A stretch of DNA of 38,915 nt, taken from positions 1-38,915 of the forward strand of contig VGAI01000006.1 of assembly GCA_016870815.1 (NCBI GenBank). Reading direction: 5' to 3'. The position numbers and the translations under genes are program-made. Origin of the DNA: Actinomycetota bacterium (GTDB lineage Bacteria; Actinomycetota; Actinomycetes; Nanopelagicales; Nanopelagicaceae). The notes under the pieces were generated by a model. That model saw only the letters and a program-made list of their open reading frames with translations. It was not told where the DNA came from and made no database searches. Position 1 is the first letter of the stretch. Each line of letters begins with the position of its first letter. This document shows, piece by piece, positions 28,579-31,565 of the stretch.

Positions 28579-29157
28579 TCAGCTATCTCTTGTTTTGAAG
28601 CGGACCAAAATCTCGGGTAACGCCACGGCATCAACTAAGACGTCATGATCTTCTCGTGGGAGTGATTCGCTCGACAACTCTTCATCATGGAGCAAAGCAA
28701 CCTTCCATGCACTCTGGGTCAGGGCGCCATGCGCTAAGGCGCGATCGTAGGAGCCACCACCTTGGCCAAGCCTTACCCCACCTCGATCGACTCGAAGCGC
28801 GGGAAGAATCACGACATCAAGTAAGCCGTCAAATACTTCACCGATTGGTTGTAGTAACTTCTTGCGCTTCTTATCTCGCTCAAATTCCATATCTGGATGA
28901 CATTTGATCCAAGTTATCTCACCCTGTGGATTGGTTCTTGGCAAGAGCAGTTCTTTTCCAAGTGAGGCGATCTTCTCATTGAGCATCACGGTTGAGGGCT
29001 CGTCGCCATATGAAAGATAGGAAGCGATTGTTTTCGATGTTGAGATCTCACTTGCTCGAAGCAGATGAAGCCAGTCACCGCCGATAGATCGTTGCCGCCG
29101 TTCGAAGCGAAAACGAGTTCGAAGTTCCTCTTTATTCTTTGATGCCGCAGAACTCAC
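28579..29157 (-). CDS. 5-formyltetrahydrofolate cyclo-ligase
   Basis: This is an ATP-dependent enzyme converting 5-formyl-THF to 5,10-methenyl-THF, rescuing stored folate. It has 192 residues from GTG at 29157, as usual. N-terminal ELRTRFRFERRQR and the ATP/substrate loop LPALRVDRGGVRLGQGGGSYDRAL are diagnostic. A TTG at 29160 would add one residue; TAGAGT six bases before GTG supports 29157. It is divergent from the MoeA-like gene, as in mycobacteria (Rv0992c), except that galU, which I recall lying between them there, is absent. Confidence 0.92.
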   Translation of the reverse strand: MSSAASKNKEELRTRFRFERRQRSIGGDWLHLLRASEISTSKTIASYLSYGDEPSTVMLNEKIASLGKELLLPRTNPQGEITWIKCHPDMEFERDKKRKKLLQPIGEVFDGLLDVVILPALRVDRGGVRLGQGGGSYDRALAHGALTQSAWKVALLHDEELSSESLPREDHDVLVDAVALPEILVRFKTRDS

Positions 29158-29163
29158 CAACCA

Positions 29164-29194: not shown

Positions 29195-30076
29195 ATGCGC
29201 GTGGGTGATTTCGCAGCGACAGTGCTCGATCTAGCGAAGCCACTGACGCCACTAGATCTGCCGCTACTCGATGCACATGGTGCGACTCTGGCCAGCGATG
29301 TGAGAGATGGTGAGCGACTCTTGCTTCCTTCTGGGGTGCGAATTAGATCGACTCAAATCGCACTTGCTGCCGCTTCGGGTCTTGATCGACTTCCAACGAG
29401 ACCACAACCAAGAGTTGTAGTGATTGCACTCGCTGATATGGCCTCGAGCAATGGAAGTGGCGCTGAAACTAACTCATTCCTGCTCACTACTGCGGTCAAA
29501 GAGGCTGGCGCCTATGGATACCGAGTATTGCTTCAGGCTGAGACTCAGGCGCATATCAAGGCAGTTATTGAGGATCAGTTAGTGAGAGCCGATCTTCTCC
29601 TCATCACTGGAGATGTTGGTGACCGATCATTTGATGAGATCCTGGAAGTCCTTTCGCGAATTGGCGAATTCAATTCGGTTGATGTGAAATATCTGCGCGG
29701 TGGACGACATGCTTATGGCGTGATTGGCCCCGATGCAACTCCAGCACTCCTCTTTCCAGGTGATCCAATAGCGGCATATATCTCGACCGAAATTTTTGCT
29801 CGCCCGATGATCAGAAGCATGATGGGTCTCTACGATTTACATCGTCCGGTCATCAAAGCGCGACTGGACTCAGGGCTTTCCTCAGTCGAGGGCTTTCATG
29901 AGTTTCTACTTGCTTCACTCGACCGTGAAGCGGGAGTAGTACGAGTGTTGGAGGATCAATCCAGCCTCCTCTCTCTTGCTGAGGCCAATGCGCTGGTCGC
30001 GATCTCATCGCTAGATGTTGAGGTGAAATCTGGGTCCGAAGTTGATGTGATCATGCTGGAACGCAGGTATCTGTGA
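29195..30076 (+). CDS. MoeA/gephyrin-like protein lacking domain II (Glp / MoeA1-type)
   Basis: The product has 293 residues against about 400 for MoeA. The N-terminal domain I segment runs straight from LLDAHGATLASDVRDG into LLLPSGVRIRSTQI, so domain II (about 100 residues, including the substrate-contact region) is missing. The molybdopterin-binding-like domain III remains but its motifs are changed: the usual TGDE is ALADM, GGVS is ITGDVGDRSFDEI, PGKP is GGRHAYG and LPGNP is FPGDP. A short domain IV ends the protein. The neighbours match the Mycobacterium moeA1-rimJ-Rv0996 order and the corynebacterial Glp-GlpR pair, which I recall links FtsZ to the membrane. Molybdate insertion is therefore unlikely; a division-scaffold role is inferred. 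Confidence 0.75.
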   Translation: MRVGDFAATVLDLAKPLTPLDLPLLDAHGATLASDVRDGERLLLPSGVRIRSTQIALAAASGLDRLPTRPQPRVVVIALADMASSNGSGAETNSFLLTTAVKEAGAYGYRVLLQAETQAHIKAVIEDQLVRADLLLITGDVGDRSFDEILEVLSRIGEFNSVDVKYLRGGRHAYGVIGPDATPALLFPGDPIAAYISTEIFARPMIRSMMGLYDLHRPVIKARLDSGLSSVEGFHEFLLASLDREAGVVRVLEDQSSLLSLAEANALVAISSLDVEVKSGSEVDVIMLERRYL

Positions 30077-30627
30077 AGGCGAATCTGATCGTCTCATCAA
30101 CTGGCCACGTGGAACTTCGGCCGCTTCGGTTCCGCGATCGAAGTGAGTGGCTTCGCCTGAGATCAAGGAATCGAGAGTGGCTTAAGCCATGGGAGGCGAC
30201 TTCACCGAGTCTGATCAACTTTGATCCTCCCTCGTATACCCAACTTGTGATGCATCACCGACGCGAAGCGCGAAACCTCAGAGCGCTCTCTTACATCATC
30301 TGGTTTGAAGGAAAGATGGTGGGGCAGATAACCCTTGGCGGTATCGCTTTCGGTGCGCTTCGAGGTGGGCATATTGGATATTGGATCGATGAGGGATACA
30401 GCAATCGCGGAATCACTACTGAGGCTGTGGTCGCCATCACGGAGTTTGGCTTTCAATCATTGCGCCTTCATCGAATTGAGATTGCACTTCGTCCTGAGAA
30501 CGAGGCATCGAAACGGGTTGCCGAGAAGGCAGGATTCAGATTCGAAGGAATGAGGCCTCGATTTCTTCATATAGATGGCGCATGGCGAGATCACATCGTC
30601 TTTGTCAGGGAGAACCCATCCGTCTAA
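30073..30627 (+). CDS. rimJ: GNAT acetyltransferase, RimJ/RimL type
   Basis: This is a predicted N-terminal protein acetyltransferase using acetyl-CoA, 184 residues. The N-terminal strand LRPLRFRDRSEWLRLR and the acetyl-CoA loop region with GYWIDEGYSNRGITTEAVVAI are followed by HRIEIALRPENEASKRVAEKAGFRFEG, all typical of the RimJ/RimL subgroup. GTG start overlapping the upstream gene by four bases, so translation is coupled. The position equals Rv0995 of Mycobacterium. The real substrate protein is unknown; modification of the Glp/division module would be speculative. Confidence 0.88.
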   Translation: MKANLIVSSTGHVELRPLRFRDRSEWLRLRSRNREWLKPWEATSPSLINFDPPSYTQLVMHHRREARNLRALSYIIWFEGKMVGQITLGGIAFGALRGGHIGYWIDEGYSNRGITTEAVVAITEFGFQSLRLHRIEIALRPENEASKRVAEKAGFRFEGMRPRFLHIDGAWRDHIVFVRENPSV

Positions 30628-30722
30628 GACTTTTCAATAAAATGTTTTGAAATCCAGACCACGATAAATACTCGATTCGAAATACCCGAAAAGTCCGATT
30701 ACTCCATTTATCTTTATCCCCC

Positions 30723-31565
30723 ATGGGAGCAGGTTTTATCTACCTCATCATCGTGGGGCTATGGGTCGCCTACTTCCTTCCTCGTTGGGTCTCCTCGCAT
30801 GAAGAACATCTCGGTCGTTCGATAGATCGCTACCAAGCACTCCTTGACGCGGTCGGTCGAACTGCAACAGGCATCGCTCCGGCGAGAATGAGCGAGAGCG
30901 AAAGAGTGGCCCGCCTTCAAACAAGACGAGTCACATTTCTTGCGCTCGCCACATTGTTAGTCATTACCGTCCTCTTGAATTTTATCGGTCTACTTTCACC
31001 TTCTCTTCTCTTCGTTCCCGTAGTTGGATTTGGCGCATATCTTCTCGTTGTCAGGCGACAGAGATTGATGGACCTTCGAATCAAAGAGAGTGAACAACTA
31101 CATGGATCAACTTCTCGACATTACGATTCTTCAGAGCAAAAGATGAGTGAACGTTCATTCAACTCTGAGATTTATCGTTCGAAGTATGCCGAGTTGATTG
31201 TCTCGGTTCAGGGCGAGTCGGTTCCGGAGCAATGGACTCCGCTTGCAGAGCGCGAGAGCTACCAATCGAGTGGGATTGTCTTACTTCCGAAGGGATCGGC
31301 TGGTTCACGAGATACCTGGCAACCAACTCCGGTCCCAGCACCTACCTATCTATCTGCGCCACGAGTTGTCCCGGCACGTCGCGTCATTGACCTTACTAAT
31401 CCTGGCGCATGGAGCAGTAGGAACAATCCACAGAGTGATGACGAATTAGCCCAGCTTGAGCAAGAGGCCTTGGCTGCAATTGCGCCAAACTCTGATGAGA
31501 TCTTCGATCAAGAAGTGGCAGAAGAAGCGGCAGCCCGAATCTCTCGACTACGAAGAGCCAACTAG
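30723..31565 (+). CDS. Membrane protein of the Rv0996/GlpR type
   Basis: The 280-residue product has an N-terminal helix (about 3-20, YLIIVGLWVAYFLPRWV), a cytoplasmic loop, two close helices (about 70-112) and a long hydrophilic C-terminal tail. The tail carries VVPARRVIDLTNPGAW, a motif I associate with actinobacterial proteins at this locus, and an acidic coiled end. It is the third gene of the moeA-like/rimJ cluster, as Rv0996 is in Mycobacterium and as GlpR, the membrane receptor of Glp, is in Corynebacterium (from memory). The 95-base upstream gap is AT-rich with TATCTT eight bases before the ATG, so it may have its own promoter. Homology rests on topology, motif and context. Confidence 0.7.
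   Translation: MGAGFIYLIIVGLWVAYFLPRWVSSHEEHLGRSIDRYQALLDAVGRTATGIAPARMSESERVARLQTRRVTFLALATLLVITVLLNFIGLLSPSLLFVPVVGFGAYLLVVRRQRLMDLRIKESEQLHGSTSRHYDSSEQKMSERSFNSEIYRSKYAELIVSVQGESVPEQWTPLAERESYQSSGIVLLPKGSAGSRDTWQPTPVPAPTYLSAPRVVPARRVIDLTNPGAWSSRNNPQSDDELAQLEQEALAAIAPNSDEIFDQEVAEEAAARISRLRRAN

Follow-up and report, generated by a model that had tools for sequence, protein, structure and literature searches.

A shortened glp gene and its neighbours

The window analysed here is a stretch of 38,915 nucleotides from an Actinomycetota bacterium of the Nanopelagicaceae (assembly GCA_016870815.1, contig VGAI01000006.1), and the genes and features that concern us are collected in Table 1. The central gene, glp, has an intact reading frame of 293 codons beginning with ATG, and it is followed by a rimJ-like gene and by glpR/sepX, the arrangement that a previous sequence-only reading of this DNA had described.

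Table 1. Genes and sequence features of the glp locus, with positions in the window
Feature	Position	Strand	Evidence
5-formyltetrahydrofolate cyclo-ligase, usual divergent upstream neighbour of glp	28579..29160	-	TIGR02727 E=1.7e-26; same place in family loci
glp, domain-II-less Glp (gephyrin-like divisome protein), 293 aa	29195..30076	+	NF045515; best PDB match 8bve; dN/dS
Pro-rich hinge 1, KPLTPLDLP, aa 15-23	29237..29263	+	alignment; Glp signature as defined in PMC10522489
Junction where domain II is missing, DVRDG, aa 35-39	29297..29311	+	LL..GLD length comparison
Pro-rich hinge 2, PTRPQPR, aa 67-73	29393..29413	+	alignment; Glp signature
EDQLVRADL, aa 126-134	29570..29596	+	shared by short and full-length family Glps, lacking in MoeA paralogues
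Equivalent of the C. glutamicum FtsZ-binding hairpin, aa 240-252, shortened, Tyr369 equivalent absent	29912..29950	+	structure match, alignment
rimJ-like GNAT acetyltransferase	30073..30627	+	PF13302 E=1.8e-20; 4-bp overlap with glp stop
glpR/sepX, membrane protein	30723..31565	+	NF050099 (SepX_GlpR_2) E=3.6e-22; hydropathy
GlpR tail block WQPTPVPAPTY...RRVIDLTNPGAW (residues 199-230), possibly the segment that binds Glp	31317..31412	+	conservation

The glp product matches the NCBIfam profile Glp_gephyrin (NF045515) with E=1.1e-61 over positions 138-403 of 403, and the match to the NCBIfam MoeA_actino profile is weaker (2.3e-35). Its NF045515 score does not reach the curated 475-bit cut-off, which is set on the whole protein and which a shortened one would be expected to miss. 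Pfam recognises only MoCF_biosynth (aa 86-207) and MoeA_C (aa 221-287), the closest solved structure is that of Corynebacterium glutamicum Glp (PDB 8bve), and both of the Pro-rich hinges that, lying between domains I and III, constitute the Glp signature are present. In a tree restricted to domains I, III and IV, short Glps group with full-length Glps and apart from MoeA paralogues, with weak support for the MoeA/Glp split (75/90). On the evidence of profile, signature and tree, the gene is an orthologue of Glp, the divisome scaffold derived from MoeA. An AlphaFold prediction made from an alignment of only two sequences, the protein itself and one close relative, reached a pLDDT of 39. The stretch EDQLVRADL is nearly invariant among Glps of the family and missing from the MoeA paralogues, and is possibly a partner-binding or interface element.

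Absence of domain II and alteration of the insertase motifs

The domains of C. glutamicum Glp have been delimited as I (residues 20-45 and 146-181), II (46-145), III (1-19 and 182-331) and IV (332-417) (PMC10522489). The window protein spans domains I, III and IV, and domain II is cleanly gone; the interval between the conserved anchors LL and GLD is 41 residues long, compared with 139-144 in full-length relatives from the same family, so that 98-103 residues are missing, corresponding almost exactly to domain II and bearing out the earlier estimate of about 100. The protein therefore departs from the four-domain architecture of Glp, and we class it as a variant rather than a typical member.

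Every motif of the MoeA active site (DNSAMDGYA, MTGAP, TGDE, GGVS and PGKP) is absent or replaced. The first two reside in domain II and are absent from the protein, while the other three are changed to LADM, GDVG and GGRH respectively, exactly the replacements that had been read from the letters alone. Motif loss is nevertheless wider than domain loss and not peculiar to proteins that lack domain II: the corresponding sites of C. glutamicum Glp read VGAE, GAVG and PGSV. The resemblance to that protein (Cgl0883; 8bve/8bvf) extends from orthology by profile to the two Pro-rich hinges, the linkage with glpR and the altered insertase motifs; unlike the window protein, however, C. glutamicum Glp possesses all four domains and a longer FtsZ hairpin (PMC10522489). 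What the window protein shares with MoeA and the E domain of gephyrin is the fold of domains III and IV; it differs from them in having no domain II, in its replaced active-site motifs, and in coming from a genome where MoaA and MoaC were not found.

Distribution of the short form and number of losses

The domain-II-less form does not reflect chance, because it recurs across the genomes of the family. In a survey of the family, short Glps occur in representatives of 15 of the 17 genera, and full-length Glps in g6 and g14. A Glp-profile match was obtained in 282 of 296 family genomes and in all 108 that are near-complete, counting matches of whatever length, a few low-scoring ones of which may be fragments. 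Among the matches listed for the 296 genomes, only four family Glps exceed the NF045515 cut-off (G009, G017, G023 and G034). These full-length proteins share EDQLVRADL with the window Glp and, where the contig reaches far enough, the rimJ and glpR neighbours; they differ in having domain II, intact insertase motifs and an adjoining moaC, and no second full MoeA-like gene was found with them.

Among 346 sampled genomes of the class, at least two further short lineages were identified (f39/g94 and f5/g72); follow-up was restricted to genomes with weak best matches, and more such lineages may exist. Each has a full-length sister genus (g95 and g21 respectively). The short Glps of the window's family (f1) form one clade (100/100), the short f39 form is placed beside full-length f39 Glp (97/85) and the short f5 form with full-length f5 Glp (100/100), giving a minimum of three changes on the tree. 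A single origin of all short Glps was rejected by the AU test (p=0.0018), whereas holding the f1 and f39 short forms together was not formally rejected (p=0.060). The LL..GLD junction is 41, 45 and 40 residues long in the three short lineages, and the junction sequences differ too. Taken together, the tree, the AU tests and the differing junctions indicate that domain II was lost at least twice, and probably three times independently, which goes beyond what the sequence-only reading had claimed. The full-length Glp of g21 in f5 (L070) has decayed motifs, with no moaC in G040, and this state resembles the intermediate that would be expected before domain loss in g72 (short, L129).

The short gene has been maintained by selection. 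Measured against L002, a 93%-identical relative, glp has a dN/dS of 0.041, lower than the values for rimJ (0.095) and glpR (0.112). With dS at about 1.0, synonymous changes approach saturation and the figures are rough; glp is under strong purifying selection. The loss of a domain in a reduced genome might be taken to mark a functionless, decaying relic of MoeA, but this can practically be dismissed, being already contradicted by the low dN/dS of glp, by the detection of the profile in all near-complete genomes of the family, and by intact frames in a constant gene order.

Relationship with molybdenum cofactor synthesis

In many full-length loci the gene order is glp-moaC-mogA-like-rimJ-glpR. 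The short-Glp loci of the family have neither moaC nor the mogA-like gene between glp and rimJ, and rimJ and then glpR lie downstream of glp in every such locus examined. Profile searches found no MoaC, MoaA or MoCoBD_1 in the window's genome (G000) or its four congeners; G000 is 82.8% complete, and G001, a congener likewise without MoaC and MoaA, is 98% complete. Glp is the sole MoeA-like gene in G000, and the only PF00384 match, a candidate molybdoenzyme, was rejected as such, being NuoG. A full cofactor pathway without another MoeA was not encountered here, and the absence of MoaA and MoaC from these five assemblies, together with the replaced motifs, upholds the earlier judgement that enzymatic function is unlikely.

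Across the family, MoaC is present in 40 of the 108 near-complete genomes and missing from 70 of 113 sampled genomes. All six sampled short-Glp genomes with MoaC also carry a second MoeA-like gene. Family members with MoaC and MoaA and no other MoeA, by contrast, keep a full-length, motif-intact Glp, and this difference favours the idea that the enzymatic part was stripped from the short form. Where moaC is present in the genome, full-length Glps are intact in 20 cases by pattern and in one more by eye (G041, scored as decayed by the automatic motif count on account of an ATGSEL variant), and decayed in one, from G039, a genome with a further MoeA-like gene; where moaC is absent, four of four are decayed, and no short Glp has intact motifs. 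These counts contain few independent pairs for a phylogenetic sign test of motif state against moaC, too few to carry statistical weight.

It might be argued that the short Glp is a residual molybdenum cofactor protein that, for example, binds or stores imported molybdopterin, given that it retains domains III and IV from the MoeA fold. We consider this very improbable in view of the lack of MoaA, MoaC and MoCoBD_1 in the genus, the altered active-site motifs, the disappearance of domain II with DNSAMDGYA and MTGAP, and the many sampled family genomes that are without MoaC.

A separate observation concerns genomes that combine moaC with a sole MoeA-like match, that match being a motif-intact Glp (G041, G043, G044, G049, G050, G052 and G058, and within the family G009, G017 and G023). 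In genomes of this kind Glp may combine the roles of enzyme and scaffold, which runs contrary to published work, where it is regarded as not moonlighting.

The membrane partner and the division apparatus

The product of glpR scores 79.5 bits against its profile, under the curated cut-off of 150, as expected of a diverged member. Hydropathy reveals three hydrophobic segments (aa 1-23, 67-95 and about 90-111) and a tail of 168 residues. In its NCBIfam match, its three hydrophobic segments and its position adjoining glp-rimJ it resembles known GlpR/SepX proteins (Cgl0885; Streptomyces SepX, PMC8748795), although its first loop is about 40 residues long compared with 192 in C. glutamicum, and its tail 168 compared with 78. 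The tail block, W.P..VP.PTY, is common to GlpR encoded beside short and beside full-length Glps, and this conservation makes it a candidate for the segment that binds Glp.

The components of a minimal division module, as had been proposed for this locus, are largely in place. FtsZ in G000 retains a C-terminal peptide (DDDIDVPDFMK), SepF is encoded downstream of ftsZ, and GlpR is present; the step in which Glp binds FtsZ is one that we infer, and it would involve a shortened hairpin. In C. glutamicum, FtsZ binds the domain IV hairpin at the central dimer interface and GlpR needs the same loop, with affinities of 5.5 nM for GlpR and 4.7 uM for FtsZ, a difference of about a thousandfold; PMC10522489 reports no use of domain II for binding either partner. 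The corresponding loop (M361-Y369 in C. glutamicum) still forms a hairpin in the window Glp, shortened and without the tyrosine anchor, and the same is true of most short Glps of the family, although loop length varies among full-length Glps as well. The mode of FtsZ binding may therefore differ from that in C. glutamicum. Regarding FtsZ itself (L078-L100), most of the short-Glp family members read have EIDVPDFMK-like ends, and full-length-Glp members and two basal short ones have LDVPDFLK-like ends, possibly co-varying with the changed hairpin.

These changes could be read differently, in that the short Glp might bind only the GlpR tail, and not FtsZ, and serve membrane organisation or some other cytoplasmic client. 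The shortened hairpin, the missing aromatic anchor, the conserved tail motif and the far tighter binding of GlpR in C. glutamicum would all accommodate such a role. Yet in C. glutamicum both partners depend on one and the same loop (PMC10522489), so the loss of one alone is not obvious, and the FtsZ C-terminal peptide has been kept, albeit that SepF binding could explain this too. On balance we think an exclusive partnership with GlpR unlikely.

A search for DivIVA/Wag31 detected none in 16 family genomes, one of them with a full-length Glp, and found it in 8 of 9 class genomes tested; a very diverged DivIVA is possible in the former. Related actinobacteria usually carry divIVA/wag31 between yggT and ileS. 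In the family loci that were read, yggT is directly followed by ileS with no gene between them (L142, 7056-7385; L143, L144, L145 and L147). With DivIVA/Wag31 undetected and this slot empty, a point that the sequence-only reading had not raised, the division network cannot match that of C. glutamicum exactly; in that species GlpR also binds Wag31 (PMC10522489), and the genome encodes Wag31 along with two additional copies of MoeA.

A model for the short Glp

Our central contention, to which we would give a probability of roughly three in four, is that the window encodes a scaffold-only Glp, consisting of domains I, III and IV, that operates in a reduced FtsZ-Glp-GlpR module. The ancestor would have had a full-length Glp with intact insertase motifs in a glp-moaC-mogA-rimJ-glpR cluster. 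Molybdenum cofactor synthesis would then have left the locus, either lost outright or taken over by a separate moeA-moaC set, after which the catalytic motifs could decay and domain II be excised. What remained of Glp would most likely be dimeric and anchored to the membrane through the tail of GlpR, and together the two proteins would tie the membrane to the FtsZ C-terminal peptide at the septum, without an enzyme and without Wag31. Strong selection on the short Glp, beside the gene for its membrane partner, suggests that the remaining part is enough for the scaffold role. With rather less assurance, we also lean towards a wider proposition: that domain II was needed only for the enzymatic past of the protein and was lost separately in streamlined actinobacteria, and that the remaining core (domains I, III and IV) still links FtsZ to the membrane receptor where cofactor synthesis is absent and DivIVA is not recognisable.

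Implications

The loss of an enzymatic role by Glp has been proposed before (Megrian 2025), and the published case for Glp as a repurposed non-enzyme rests on sequence and structure. A single-copy Glp without domain II is not described in the main text of PMC10522489 or PMC11733289, the latter nowhere using the term 'domain II', and the impression that this form was undescribed holds for that literature, supplements apart, where it may yet stand. The repeated natural deletion of a whole catalytic domain, under purifying selection and beside the gene for the receptor, is independent genomic evidence for repurposing. The short Glp suggests which domains the scaffold needs and offers a smaller protein for structural work, while its genomic context indicates that the trio of FtsZ, Glp and GlpR can be maintained in genomes in which no DivIVA partner was detected. 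Other actinomycetes point in the opposite direction, in that a sole MoeA-like Glp in genomes with moaC may do both jobs. For the family, the Glp of cell division is a relative of the brain protein gephyrin, and the domain that it has lost is the one that served an old molybdenum-enzyme role.
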